DNA of 44,821 nt from Erysipelothrix sp. GTDB taxonomy: Bacteria; Bacillota_I; Bacilli_A; Erysipelotrichales; Erysipelotrichaceae. The translations under genes were made by a program, and so were the position numbers. Under the pieces are notes generated by a model. The model saw only the letters and a program-made list of their open reading frames with translations, had not been told where the DNA came from and searched no databases. Within the stretch, counting starts at the first letter, position 1, and the number at the start of each line of letters is the position of its first letter. Location: the NCBI GenBank assembly GCA_012512455.1, contig JAAZEF010000124.1, forward strand, positions 1 through 44,821, written 5' to 3'. This document shows, one piece after another, positions 370 to 36,124 of the stretch.

Positions 370-1563
370 CTACTCCCACTCGATTGTACCCGGAGGTTTA
401 GAAGTGATATCATACACGACTCGATTGATGCCATCGACTTCATGAATGATACGGTTGGAAATTGTGGTAAGTACATCAAAAGGAATCCTAGCATAATCAG
501 CAGTCATACCATCCACAGAATCAACAGCACGAATCGCTAAAGCATACTCATAAGTTCTTTTGTTATTAAAGGTACCAACTGTTTTAGTATTAGTAAGTAC
601 TGTAAAGTATTGCCATATATTTAATTGAGCTTTCTTGATCTCATCGCGTAATATATAATCTGACTCTTGAACCATTCTCACCTTATCCTCAGTAATAGCA
701 CCAGTGATTCTAATACCTAAACCAGGACCAGGAAAAGGTTGACGTTCAATTAATTCTTTCGGTAAACCAAGAAAAAGACCAACCTCTCTTGCTTCATCCT
801 TAAACAAAGCATCAAGAGGCTCAATAAGACTTAGGTTCATCTCCTTAGGAAGTCCACCCACATTATGATGAGACTTAATAACCTCAGAATGGTGAGTACC
901 AGACTCAATAACATCTGTATAAAGTGTACCTTGTCCCAAGAATTTTGCGCTTTGAAGTTTTCTCGTTTCCTCTTCAAAAACACTAATAAATTCACGACCT
1001 ATTATTTTACGCTTCTCTTCAGGATCAGTAATGTCCTCTAATTTACTTAGAAATCTTTTCTGAGCATTCACATAAACGAGATTAACATTAAAATGATCGA
1101 CAAAAGTTTCCTTAACCTCTAATCCCTCATCCTTACGCATCAGTCCATGATCCACAAATATACAAGTTAATTGGTCTCCAATTGCTCTTTGTAATAAAGC
1201 TGCTGTAACAGAAGAGTCAACTCCACCAGATAGACCACAAATGACTTGACTATCCTTTACTTGTGACTGAATCTTTTCAATTTGTTCACTAACAAATCTT
1301 TCAACACTCCAGTTTTTTTCCATCTTACAAATATCAAAAACAAAATGTGTTAACTCATTAAGATTTTTGAAGTTTAGTTGAGGCTTATCATTATCTAAAG
1401 GTTGGTCACTACCAACCACAACATAACCTTTAATTGAAGGTTCATCATCAATTAAATCATTCACCATTTCAGAATATACACCCAAATCTCTTATTTGACG
1501 CACAATAGACTGCGCTTGTTGTGACCCTAGATTAACAACAACAATTTTATCTTTAGCCCACAT
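370..1563 (-). CDS. guaA: GMP synthase, glutaminase domain largely deleted
   Basis: GMP synthase aminates XMP to GMP using ATP, the last step of guanine nucleotide synthesis. The 397 residues hold a complete ATP-pyrophosphatase domain (P-loop SGGVDSS at 112-118) and the dimerisation domain ending in the family's usual GTIEWE. Normal GuaA has about 510-525 residues. The missing part is the core of the N-terminal class I glutamine amidotransferase: its first strand and helix (residues 7-30), a short piece near 45-55 and its last helix (near 65-80) remain. The GxCxG nucleophile segment and the His-Glu pair are absent. I infer an ammonia-dependent enzyme, unless a separate glutaminase exists elsewhere. 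The start overlaps the end of guaB by 11 bases, so translation is probably coupled; a GGAGG lies 12 bases upstream. Confidence 0.93.
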
Positions 1564-8204: not shown

Positions 8205-8232
8205 AAATTTAATTTAAGTGTTGCTCTTTAAC

Positions 8233-8246
8233 GTTTAACATTAAAC
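8233..8246. promoter_or_regulatory. palindrome GTTTAACATTAAAC
   Basis: A perfect 6-bp inverted repeat around CA, lying between two divergent genes. The complementary form GTTTAATGTTAAAC occurs at 37109-37122 over another promoter, so both are probably sites for one regulator. Confidence 0.5.
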
Positions 8247-8365: not shown

Positions 8366-10744
8366 ATGACACAAAATACTATAGAAAAAACAAACACAAC
8401 TAAACAAGCTGTGACCCTAAAAGTCGACGATCAACCAATTCACATCATTAAACGAGATGGAAAAGTTGTAGACTATCAACCCGAAAAAATTGCCCTCGCT
8501 ATTAAAAAAGCATTTGATGCAGTTAATAACAGTCAATATCAAAACAATGACGTCTACCGTGTTCATCATACCGTAACTGAACTGATTGAACAAAAAAATC
8601 GAATTGAAATAGAAGAAATTCAAGATACCATCGAAAAAACACTCTTAAACTTTAATTACCAAGATGTTTATGAAGCTTTTTCTTCGTATCGTGATCGCCG
8701 CGCTAACAGCCGTCAAAACTTCTTATCAAAACAACATAAATTCCTAAAGTCGGTTGAACAACTTTCAATCAAAGACTCCGGAGATGTTGATGAGAAAAGA
8801 GAAAACGCAAATATTAATGGTGATGGCGCCATGGGCATGATGTTGCAGTATGGATCCACAATTTCTAAACAGTTCTCAAAGTCGTATCTAATTTCTAAAG
8901 AATTTGTTGACGCACATGAGGAAGGAACAATCCACATTCATGACATGGACTTTATTCCTATGGGTACGACAACCTGTTGTCAAATCGATTTAGAAGCACT
9001 TTTTGAGAATGGCTTCTCAACTGGACATGGACATTTAAGAGAACCTAAGGACATTGCTTCCTATAGCGCATTAGCTGCGATTGCCATTCAATCGAATCAA
9101 AATGATCAACATGGCGGACAATCAATTCCCGCATTTGACCACGCCCTTAGCTAAGGAGTTGTTTGTACTTTTAGAAAACAACTTAAACAAATGGTCTCAG
9201 ACTATTATGATATTCACGAAGAAACTAAAGATTATCAACCAATTATTGAAGTCATTAATCAAATTGAAAGTTTAGACTCTGACTTTGATGAAGTAAAATC
9301 AATTATCAATGATGATAAACTTACCAACAAACTTATTGATAAAGCCTTAGCTAAAACAGACCGTATTACTTATCAAGCTATGGAAGCATTTATTCATAAC
9401 TTAAACACCATGCATTCACGTGCCGGTGCCCAAGTTCCTTTTTCTTCCATAAACTTTGGAACTGATACTTCTAAAGCAGGTAGATTCGTTACTAAAAACT
9501 ATCTTTTAGCTTTAGAAGCAGGTCTTGGTAAAAATGAAACACCAATTTTCCCTATCGCAGTCTTCAAGATCAAAGAAGGTATCAATTACTATGAAGATGA
9601 CCCTAACTATGACCTCTTTGTCCTCTCATGTGAAGTGAGCGCCAAGAGAATGTTCCCTAATTTCTCATTCTTAGATTCATCATTTAATAAGCCTTATTAC
9701 CAAGAAGGTAACTATAAGACAGAAACTACTTATATGGGATGTCGTACTCGTGTCATGGCTGATGTCACAGATCCTGACAATGAAGTTGTTACAGGTCGTG
9801 GTAACCTCTCATTTACCTCAATTAACTTACCTCGTTTAGGATTAAAACATGGACTTCTATCTAAACATAAATCAACAGATTGGAACAGTTTCTATGAGGA
9901 ACTTAATCATCTCTTAGAAATAACTAAGGACCAGTTGTTGGAACGCTTAGAGATTCAAAAGAATAAAAAAGTCTTTAATTTCCCATTCTTAATGGGACAA
10001 GGCGTTTGGAAAAACAGTAAGAATCTTAAAGCAACTGATCGTTTAGGTGACTTGTTAAATACCGGAACACTGACCGTTGGCTTTATTGGACTGGCAGAAT
10101 GTTTAGTAGCAATGATTGGAGAACACCATGGTGAAAGTGATTATGCTCAAGAAAAAGGTGTAGAAATCATTACTCATATGAGAAAAGTACTCGATAAGTA
10201 TTCTAAGGAATATTCTCTTAACTTCTCATTAATTGCGACACCAGCCGAAGGACTATCAGGACGCTTTGTTGCTATTGACCAAACAATCTTTGGTTCAATT
10301 GAAGGTATCACTAACAAAGATTACTATACTAACTCCTTCCATGTTCCTGTTTACTACCCTATATCAATTGAAGAGAAACTTAAAAAAGAAGGTCCTTATC
10401 ATGCATTAACCAATGCGGGACATATCTCATATGTTGAACTTGATGGCGATACAACTAACAATGTGGAATCCTTTATTGAAGTTGTTCATATGATGAAAGA
10501 GAATGATATTGGATATGGAGCTATTAACCACCCTATCGATAGAGATCCTGTTTGTGGTTATACAGGAATCATTGAAGATGTATGCCCACAATGTGGAAGA
10601 AGCGAACATCAAAATGAATATAACTTCGAAAGAATTCGTCGTATCACCGGCTATCTTGTTGGAACATTAGATCGTTTCAACAATGCTAAAAAAGCTGAAG
10701 AAGAAAGCCGCGTCAAACATACTTTTAGTAGTCATGAAAATTAG
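8366..10744 (+). pseudogene. nrdD: anaerobic ribonucleoside-triphosphate reductase, in-frame TAA
   Basis: The class III enzyme makes dNTPs without oxygen through a glycyl radical. Reading through one TAA (9152-9154, codon 263) gives a continuous 792-position protein with no frame change. It has an ATP-cone (about 27-115), the ten-stranded barrel, the Zn-site cysteines (VCGYTG and VCPQCG) and the glycyl radical loop RITGYL near the C terminus. The stop lies inside the conserved block between QSIPAFDHALS and GVVCTFRKQL, so 262 residues are cut from 529. The next in-frame ATG (9191) has no ribosome binding site. It is either a nonsense mutation, a sequence error or a read-through site. The start at 8366 follows AAAGAGGAG. 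nrdG overlaps its end by 11 bases and is intact. Confidence 0.85.
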
Positions 10745-11267
10745 AACTTCAAATTTAATCTTTGATTCAATTGTTGATGGACCATCCTTAAGGACGGTCC
10801 TCTTTACCCAAGGTTGTTCACACCATTGTCCAGGGTGTCATAACACAGAAACATGGGACCCAACCAAAGGTCAACTTAAAGATGTCGATGATTTATTTAA
10901 TCAAATCATTAATCATGGCACCAAAGCAATGACCTTCTCTGGAGGAGAACCCTTTGAACAACCCTTAGCCTGTGCTTCTTTAGCTCAAAGACTTAAAGAA
11001 CAAGGTTTCAATCTTTGGTCATATAGTGGGTATACTTGGGAACAAATTCAACAAGACGAAGATAAAAAACAACTATTGAAACATCTAGATGTACTTGTTG
11101 ATGGTCGATTCATTTTAGCCCAAAAATCTTTAACTTTACGCTTCAAGGGATCTTCTAATCAGAGAATTATCGATGTCCAAGAATCAATCAAACAAAATAA
11201 AATTGTGCTCTATTCATTAAACAAGAAAAGAGACTTTAGACAAAAAAGAGAAGGTATCTATATTTGA
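10734..11267 (+). CDS. nrdG: NrdD-activating radical SAM enzyme
   Basis: A 177-residue activase that uses a 4Fe-4S cluster and S-adenosylmethionine to place the glycyl radical on NrdD. The radical SAM motif is CSHHCPGC (CX3CX2C), preceded by the usual DGPSLRTVLFTQG and followed by the GGEP motif (FSGGEPFEQP). Length is normal or slightly long. The ATG at 10734 lies within the last codons of nrdD (11-base overlap) and has no ribosome binding site, so translation depends on ribosomes finishing nrdD. The nonsense codon in nrdD could therefore reduce nrdG output too. Confidence 0.92.
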   Translation: MKIRTSNLIFDSIVDGPSLRTVLFTQGCSHHCPGCHNTETWDPTKGQLKDVDDLFNQIINHGTKAMTFSGGEPFEQPLACASLAQRLKEQGFNLWSYSGYTWEQIQQDEDKKQLLKHLDVLVDGRFILAQKSLTLRFKGSSNQRIIDVQESIKQNKIVLYSLNKKRDFRQKREGIYI

Positions 11268-32384: not shown

Positions 32385-34125
32385 AACAAAAAAAGAAATT
32401 CTATTAAGAATGTTATCACTTTTAAGTCCCTATCGTTGGATTGTTTTAATCATCTCTATCTTATCAGTAGCTCAAGTTACCCTAACACTCTATTTACCAG
32501 TACTAATTGGTCAATCAATAGACTTAATGATTTCTAAAGGACAAGTTGATTTTGTTAGCCTACAACAATTATTAAAACAAATGGTCATTATTATTATACT
32601 GAACACTTTAGTCCAATGGATTCTTCCACGTATTTACCAAAAAATAACTTATGAAATAACTCGTGATTTAAGACAAGCAACTCTAGAGAAACTTCACAGT
32701 ATGCCCCTAAGTTATATCGATCGTCATAGCACTGGCGACTTAGTAAGCCGCTTAACTACAGACACAGAACAATTCAATGATGGCTTATTAATGATCTTTG
32801 AACAATTGATTATCGGTCTTTTAACTATTATCTTCACATTAGTAATGATGTTCAATATTAATGTCATCATGATGATTGTCGTCACCCTCTTGTCACCCAT
32901 ATCCTTATTAACATCACGATTTATTGCCAATAAGAGTTATGAGTATTTCTCATCAAGTGCCAAACAACGAGGAGCACTTTCTGAATTAGTAGAAGAGAGT
33001 ATTACCCAGAAAGAAACCATCACACTTTTTAACTATCATACTCAAAGAGCAAATCAGTTTAGACATATTAATGATAACTATAGTGATTTATCATTTAAAG
33101 CAACCTTTTATTCTTCTACCGTAAATCCTACCACCCGCTTTATCAACTCCTTAATTTATGCGGGAGTGACAGGTATAGGAGCACTCTTAATTCTAAATGC
33201 TTCATTAAGTGTCGGTGGACTTACTGTCTTTTTAAACTACGCCAAAGAATATACCAAACCGTTTAATGATATTTCCAATGTCTTTGCTGAACTACAAAGT
33301 GCCATGGCCTCAGCAAATCGTCTCTTCGATATCCTAGATGGACCTACTGAACTCGAAAGTGGAAATCATATTTTTGATAAAGATAACTTAAGTGGTGATA
33401 TAACATTTGAACATGTTGATTTCTCCTATGACCCCAATATCACTTTAATTGAAGATTTAAATCTTAATGTTAAGGCAGGTCAAAAAGTCGCTATCGTGGG
33501 ACCTACCGGGGCTGGTAAATCAACTGTCATTAACTTATTGATGAGATTCTATGAAGTAAACAGTGGTCATATCACATTAGACCAACAAAAAATAACAGAC
33601 TACACCAAAGCTTCATTACGCCAACAAATTGGGATGGTCCTTCAAGATGGTTGGATAAAGTCAGGTAGTGTTGCTGATAACATAGCATATGGATTTCCTA
33701 ACGCATCGAGAGAGCAAGTGATATCAGCAGCCAAAAGAGCCTTTGCTCATCAGTTTATTGAAGCATTACCACAAGGCTATGATACCATATTAGAATCAGG
33801 TGGAAATTCATTATCCAAAGGACAACAACAATTACTATCAATAGCTCGATTATTCGTTTCAATCCCTAATGTCTTGATTTTAGATGAGGCTACTTCTTCA
33901 ATCGATACTAGAACAGAGATTCAAATTCAAAAAGCCTTCCATGCTTTAATGGAAGGCAGAACAAGTTTTGTGATTGCTCATCGTTTATCAACCATCCAAG
34001 ATGCCAATCTTATATTAGTAATGGATCAAGGTCAGGTTGTAGAACAAGGGAATCATGAAGAATTAATGAACAATAAAGGCCTTTATTATAAAATGCAGAT
34101 GGCAAACAACATTAATATTATTTAA
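32377..34125 (+). CDS. ABC exporter half, hydrolysing partner
   Basis: A 582-residue exporter half. Six helices (about 15-310) precede the nucleotide-binding domain: Walker A GPTGAGKST (near 374), Q-loop GMVLQDGW, Walker B VLILDEATSSID and switch VIAHRLSTI are canonical, so this half provides the catalytic Glu and His. Its signature is LSKGQQQLL, with Lys for the first Gly, which in a heterodimer belongs to the degenerate site. GGAGGG lies 8 bases upstream inside the partner gene. The 3' end overlaps the convergent ppk1 gene by eight bases with no terminator. Confidence 0.93.
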   Translation: MIRTKKEILLRMLSLLSPYRWIVLIISILSVAQVTLTLYLPVLIGQSIDLMISKGQVDFVSLQQLLKQMVIIIILNTLVQWILPRIYQKITYEITRDLRQATLEKLHSMPLSYIDRHSTGDLVSRLTTDTEQFNDGLLMIFEQLIIGLLTIIFTLVMMFNINVIMMIVVTLLSPISLLTSRFIANKSYEYFSSSAKQRGALSELVEESITQKETITLFNYHTQRANQFRHINDNYSDLSFKATFYSSTVNPTTRFINSLIYAGVTGIGALLILNASLSVGGLTVFLNYAKEYTKPFNDISNVFAELQSAMASANRLFDILDGPTELESGNHIFDKDNLSGDITFEHVDFSYDPNITLIEDLNLNVKAGQKVAIVGPTGAGKSTVINLLMRFYEVNSGHITLDQQKITDYTKASLRQQIGMVLQDGWIKSGSVADNIAYGFPNASREQVISAAKRAFAHQFIEALPQGYDTILESGGNSLSKGQQQLLSIARLFVSIPNVLILDEATSSIDTRTEIQIQKAFHALMEGRTSFVIAHRLSTIQDANLILVMDQGQVVEQGNHEELMNNKGLYYKMQMANNINII

Positions 34126-36124
34126 GCTTATCTCTAAAATAGTCATATAAAACATCTTGGCTGTGTTTTAAATGAGACTGCATGTTCTTTAAATATTGCC
34201 CATCAGCTAATAAATAATGACCTTCTGTCCTTTCATCCATCTCAACCGATAATATTTTTTCAATCATGGACTTTAAGTCTTGTTGTTTTATTTTCGCAAA
34301 CACTTCAATACGACGAGTTGTATTACGATGCAACAAATCACCTGAACCAATATAATATCTAGCCAACGAAGCATTACCAAATTTATAAATTCTAGAATGT
34401 TCTAAGTAACGTCCCACAATACTTTTAACAGTGATGTTCTCACTAATGCCCTCTATCCCTGCCACAAGACAACAAATACCACGCACCAAGAGATCAACCT
34501 TCACCCCTGCTTGGGAAGCCTCAATCAATTTATTCATAATTAACTCATCATTAAATGAGTTCATCTTCATGACAATATGACCTTGTCGTCCAAAAGAAAT
34601 TTCTTCATCAATTTCCTTAATTATAAGATCTCGATATAGATGAGGTGCTATCCACAATGATTGTGTCTTAGTAACAAATGTATTATCAGATAAATTCTCA
34701 AATAATAACATCGCATCCTCACCCACTGCTTGTTCAGTCGTCACTAAAGCAAGATCGGTATACTGACGTTGGGTCTTTTCATTAAAGTTACCCGTCCCTA
34801 TATAAGTGATATAGCGATCGTCTTTCATCTGTATTACACATACCTTCGCATGGACTTTATAGTTAGGAATACCATAAATAACCTCACAGCCAGCTTCTTC
34901 AAAAATTTTTGAATATTCAATATTACGTTCCTCATCAAAACGGGCTCGTAGTTCTAAACAGACCGTGACTGCTTTGCCTTTCTCTTTAGCATATAACAGA
35001 GCCGAAACGATACGACTCGGATTAGCTAAACGATAAAGTGAAATTTTAATAGTTTCCACAAGAGGATCTAATGCTGCCTCATGAAGTAATTGAACAAAAC
35101 TATTTGAAGAATGATAGGGATAAGCTACTAAATAATCCCTTGTTTTTAATGAATCCATAAAACGCTGGGCTGAGAAATCAAATTGTTGAATGCTTACTTT
35201 CTCAGGATAAACTACTGCCTTAAATTCATCTTTTAGCTCATTGTATAATTCAAAGCCGACCGACAAATCTAATTTATATTGATTGACTACCGTAAGTTCC
35301 TTAGCACATTCAATCTTTGTTCTTAAGTAACTCTTAAAATTTTTAGAAATCATGCGATCTAACTGTAATCTCACTGGACCTAAACTTTGTCTATTAACCA
35401 CCAAATCTTCCATTTGGCCACGATAATCTACATCATCATCAATAAGACTAATTTCCACATCTATATCAGCATTACGAGTAACTCTGATTGCTACTGCTTC
35501 ATGAATTTTATATTTGTTGTAAATCTCTTCTAGATACAACTCGATCACATCAATTGAAGATACCACACAATGCATACTGTCCACAAAATAATGAAAGTGG
35601 GCAGGAAGATGGTGAAGTGAAATTAAACCATATCGTTATTTCTTTTGTTTCGTTTGAAGTGTTAATATCAGATACAATTGACCATTTTGAAGAAAAGGAA
35701 AAGGATGATCTCCTCTTAGAATATGAGGAAAAATAAACGGTTTGACATTATTTTCCCAAATTTCTTTGAGTTTCTTATCATCTTTTTTCTCTAAATTCTT
35801 AATATCAACAAACGATAAACCGATTTGTTTAAATTCTTCTTGAAGATGTCGATAAGTGTACTGTACTTGAGGTTCAAAATCGTTCAACCAATCCATGATT
35901 TTTAAGACTTGATGATGATGTTCATCATTATCTAAATAGCGCTCTAGAAAACTTTGGTCCAACAGTGAACCAACACGCACTCTAAAAAACTCATCTAAAT
36001 TACTCCCATAGATTGCCATAAAACGTAGACGCTCCAAAAGAGGTGTATTTTTATCTAGTGCTTGCTTTAAGACACGCTCATTAAATTTAAGCCATGATAT
36101 TTCACGATTTTCAAAGTGTGACAT
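34118..36124 (-). pseudogene. ppk1: polyphosphate kinase 1, in-frame TAA
   Basis: PPK1 makes long-chain polyphosphate from ATP at the membrane. Reading through one TAA (35636-35638, codon 163) gives a continuous 668-position protein, slightly under the usual 690. The N domain opens with NREISWLKFNERVLKQA. The catalytic part includes PYHSSNSFVQLL, the phosphorylated His in NYKVHAKVCVI and LEHSRIYKFGN. The stop follows LQTKQKK, and the frame continues RYGLISLHHLPAHFHYF before the rest. The C part could begin at GTG 35584 or ATG 35575, but neither has a strong ribosome binding site. A nonsense mutation, sequence error or read-through are the options. It lies downstream of a Ppx/GppA gene by three bases. 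Confidence 0.85.

Follow-up and report, generated by a model that had tools for sequence, protein, structure and literature searches.

Class III anaerobic ribonucleotide reductase is encoded in a draft genome of Erysipelothrix sp. by an nrdD gene that carries a single in-frame TAA in a reading frame that is otherwise conserved, and this raises the question whether the stop belongs to the organism or only to its deposited sequence. The window, the whole stretch of 44,821 nucleotides that was analysed, is contig C101 of a draft assembly that comprises 1.37 Mb in 124 contigs and has a contamination value of 6.57%.

The interrupted nrdD gene and its intact partner nrdG

The following features of the window are relevant for the interpretation of the stop:
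8227..8246, + strand: 20-bp element TTTAACGTTTAACATTAAAC, upstream of nrdD; a second exact copy exists elsewhere in the assembly
8366..10744, + strand: nrdD, class III anaerobic ribonucleotide reductase, interrupted by TAA; assigned by reading frame and profile matches
9152..9154, + strand: in-frame TAA, codon 263 of 793 of nrdD; seen directly in the sequence and absent from all other homologues examined
9191..9193, + strand: first ATG of the nrdD frame after the stop; not preceded by a Shine-Dalgarno sequence and unconvincing as start of a second chain
10737..11267, + strand: nrdG, activating enzyme, intact; shares 8 nt with the end of nrdD and scores above the NrdG cut-off
35636..35638, - strand: second in-frame TAA of the window, inside ppk (34118-36124, - strand), a lesion of the type seen in nrdD

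The initial annotation had described an in-frame TAA in a gene conserved on both sides of it and an intact, coupled nrdG, and this observation was confirmed. The N-terminal part of nrdD (262 aa) contains the ATP-cone and positions 1-115 of the NRDD profile, and the C-terminal part contains positions 129-562 of the same profile and the glycyl-radical domain. Read through, NrdD is a full-length class III reductase that reaches 1031.8 bits with PRK07111 (cut-off 764) and contains PF13597 completely, in addition to the ATP-cone. The active-site cysteines Cys 204, 422 and 459 are in place, in the same columns as in relatives, three cysteines of the zinc region (730, 740 and 743) match the columns of the aligned relatives, and the glycyl-radical loop RRITGYLVG is kept. 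In its ATP-cone, its NRDD domain, its active-site and zinc-region cysteines, its glycyl-radical loop and its adjoining nrdG, the window gene is like the known NrdD (PRK07111 / TIGR02487) and NrdG pair, but the deposited sequence lacks the uninterrupted reading frame of such a reductase. A chance open frame was rejected, as the homology crosses the stop in one frame and homologues have no stop there.

At the site of codon 263, homologues mostly have Pro, Lys, Glu, Asp or Ser within the segment FDxxLA-x-GV, and a stop was found at this site in none of the homologues examined. The stop thus falls at a tolerant position of an otherwise conserved stretch, and among these sequences only this assembly has it. 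A stop shared by relatives was considered and rejected, as the '1 TAA' flags that some relatives received in the genome search point to other positions. Compared with 23 homologues, the window nrdD differs at 2 of 194 otherwise invariant positions, which lies within the range of 0-8 seen in intact homologues, and by this measure the gene shows no sign of long decay. The earlier proposal of a very recent inactivation is therefore supported in its first part, the recency, but not in its second, for which a consensus error is the likelier explanation.

Other ribonucleotide reductase genes

A further class of ribonucleotide reductase, the presence of which had been named as a point to be checked, exists in the genome: class I is represented by NrdB with an ATP-cone and by NrdA fragments. 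The small subunit NrdB, with the ATP-cone at its N-terminus, is encoded at L095:754-1964 (G000:C50, - strand); nrdA comes next and is cut off by the end of the contig. The only other exact copy of TTTAACGTTTAACATTAAAC in the assembly lies upstream of nrdBA (L095, about 2035-2054), bringing the total to two, and the upstream region of nrdD in the relative G009 contains a version of it with 4 mismatches. No match to the NrdR zinc ribbon was detected in the genome.

A second copy of nrdD in the assembly was rejected, as the only paralogue, on contig C76, lacks the active-site cysteines. This NrdD-like open reading frame of 625 aa (L038:3264-5141, G000:C76, + strand) contains an ATP-cone and part of the NRDD domain, is devoid of the three active-site cysteines, the zinc region and the glycyl-radical loop, and has a 62% match to its C-terminal part in the same-genus genome G001. 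We read it as a catalytically dead paralogue that may be regulatory or decaying.

In-frame stops in other genes of the assembly

We scanned 1.35 Mb of the assembly (64 kb being N) for in-frame stops with coding sequence on either side and found about 15 stops of this one kind in about 14 genes, nrdD included. Besides nrdD, about 13 genes are interrupted: ileS, rpoD (two stops), topA, trmFO, recG, tkt, pepF, a cysteine-desulfurase homologue, a DNA methylase gene, an AbiEi-like gene, fmt, the gene for pyruvate:ferredoxin oxidoreductase (PFOR) and ppk, where the names AbiEi-like, fmt and PFOR are what we take these genes to be from our own reading of the sequence, without a search. For ten of the interrupted genes, the read-through product contains the Pfam families expected for the gene, either flanking the stop or spanning it. 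TAA and TAG account for most of the internal stops, and two are TGA.

A second intact copy of rpoD, ileS or topA was not present in the assembly, and none of about forty relatives had an interrupted rpoD or ileS orthologue. Bacteria are not viable without the products of rpoD, ileS and topA, and because the organism needs these products, the stops in the three genes can only be real if translation passes them. Stops in essential genes make up 4 of the roughly 15: ileS and topA have one each and rpoD has two. If, as a rough general estimate, about a quarter of the coding sequence in so small a genome is essential, randomly scattered errors would yield about the observed share, and dispensable genes would not be hit clearly more often than errors alone explain, so that real mutations need not be invoked. 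Lesions comparable to the one in nrdD, as expected for consensus errors, are found elsewhere in the assembly and also in essential genes. Two further lines of evidence were dropped: a count of frameshifts as a means to distinguish errors from mutations, as the error-tolerant gene model returned mostly ordinary neighbouring genes and its sensitivity was too low, and the type of base change, as only two ancestral codons (GAA in tkt and probably TAT in ileS) were available. A literature search on stops in draft genomes found nothing.

Direct evidence on one of the stops was obtained from the contigs themselves. Contig C58 overlaps with its final 398 bp the beginning of C118 at 94% identity, and the tkt stop site reads TAA in C118 and GAA in the strain-variant contig C58. 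At the position of the ileS stop, both the same-genus genome and G009 have TAT. Contig ends overlap either by exactly 127 nt or with about 97-98% identity and few mismatches, as expected for a de Bruijn assembly of mixed strains. A sense-codon variant was found for tkt only, and no contig in the assembly overlaps the nrdD stop at 9152-9154 of C101.

Origin of the stop in nrdD

We consider it likely, with a probability of roughly 0.8, that the TAA at codon 263 of nrdD arose as a consensus or assembly error and is not biology, because similar stops hit about fourteen genes, including genes that no cell can lose. Viable mutations would avoid essential genes, and as the stops do not, they are better explained as errors. 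Most economically, the nrdD stop shares its origin with the other stops of the assembly, a conclusion that we draw from the genome-wide set, with the sense codon shown for tkt and the nrdD site covered by a single contig. The TAA is thus present in the sequence but probably not in the organism. In the likeliest course of events, a short-read draft assembled from mixed, closely related strains would have received a wrong stop in codon 263, whereas the living organism would have an ordinary intact nrdD that is expressed together with nrdG, and the intact NrdD would work as a normal class III reductase beside the class I enzyme. Isolated in-frame stops that occur regardless of essentiality, and a sense codon in a strain-variant contig as seen for tkt, are shared with consensus errors in other mixed-strain drafts; for the nrdD of the window, the likeness derives from the assembly as a whole. 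An argument against an error is that nrdD, unlike rpoD or ileS, is dispensable in principle, as a class I reductase is present. The initial annotation had offered inactivation, read-through and a split enzyme as mechanisms, and its list did not contain the consensus error that is best supported by the about 15 stops, several of them in indispensable genes. Before a single in-frame stop in a draft genome is given a biological reading, it should be weighed against the whole assembly.

Alternatively, the stop could be a real, very recent nonsense mutation in a class III reductase that is being lost, with the class I enzyme supplying dNTPs when oxygen is available, although this appears rather unlikely to us. 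Such a mutation would be tolerable because the class I genes are present in the genome. Also in its favour, the same-genus genome G001 has no match to an nrdD orthologue beyond 1.6e-11, and the rest of nrdD is as well conserved as it would be after a fresh lesion. A single stop in an otherwise conserved gene, combined with another reductase class in the genome, is also typical of recent nonsense pseudogenes, but comparable stops in rpoD, ileS and topA would not be tolerable. Since the nrdD stop is part of a genome-wide set that includes essential genes, it needs no separate cause, and the intact nrdG and the upstream element that the nrdD promoter still has in common with nrdBA likewise argue against ongoing loss. 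If the stop were real, it would represent an early step in the loss of the class III reductase from a lineage that retains the class I enzyme.

Partial decoding of UAA and UAG as an amino acid, by which NrdD, RpoD, IleS and TopA would still be made, would account for survival despite stops in essential genes, and it agrees with the prevalence of TAA and TAG among the internal stops. The set of recovered tRNAs is incomplete, which leaves room for a suppressor, but none of the tRNAs in this set decodes UAA or UAG. Moreover, most long open reading frames (441 of 703) ordinarily end in TAA, two of the internal stops are TGA, the replaced residues differ between Glu in tkt and Tyr in ileS, and the strain variant of tkt has a sense codon. 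An alternative genetic code was rejected, as the long open reading frames end in TAA, TAG and TGA in 441, 138 and 124 cases, respectively. Read-through of nrdD, for which positive evidence was not obtained, is therefore highly improbable, and it is equally improbable that a bacterium with the standard code routinely reads through UAA and UAG in rpoD, ileS, topA and nrdD and tolerates about fifteen internal stops genome-wide. A similarly low probability applies to a split enzyme, in which a chain of codons 1-262 and a chain starting at ATG 9191 would come together as an active reductase. In its favour, each half is a long open frame, and the genome contains a split glycyl-radical enzyme, the PFL on contig C41, but in that case the second chain has a clear Shine-Dalgarno sequence and the split recurs in relatives. 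The break in nrdD interrupts the NRDD domain between positions 115 and 129 of its profile, the enzyme would lack 12 residues (264-275), no Shine-Dalgarno sequence precedes ATG 9191, and none of the close homologues is split at this site, so that neither a start signal for a second chain nor a conserved split was found. The consensus error remains the explanation that we prefer.

Split PFL, possible glycyl-radical spare parts and GuaA

The PFL core on contig C41 (L086:14405-16700, G000:C41, - strand) ends with GKD followed by TAA, and downstream of it a glycyl-radical subunit of 77 aa has its own Shine-Dalgarno sequence and ATG. Many relatives, G001, G009, G017 and G024 among them, have a stand-alone glycyl-radical open reading frame of about 80-110 aa, while the domain is fused in others, and with this recurrence the interpretation of PFL as a broken gene was rejected. 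The split can be likened to a permanent version of the spare part YfiD/GrcA (PMC8683613). Small open frames of about 100-130 aa in five relatives (G019:C40, G040:C111, G045:C59, G054:C27 and G058:C38) match the last 40 residues of NrdD, including the glycyl-radical loop, with 64-77% identity. By analogy, they may perhaps be spare parts for NrdD, as YfiD is for PFL.

GuaA, which is also encoded in the window (370-1563, - strand), has a length of only 397 aa. A glutaminase (GATase) match was not found for it in Pfam, and the synthetase and C-terminal parts are present, which suggests that this protein is possibly an ammonia-dependent GMP synthase.
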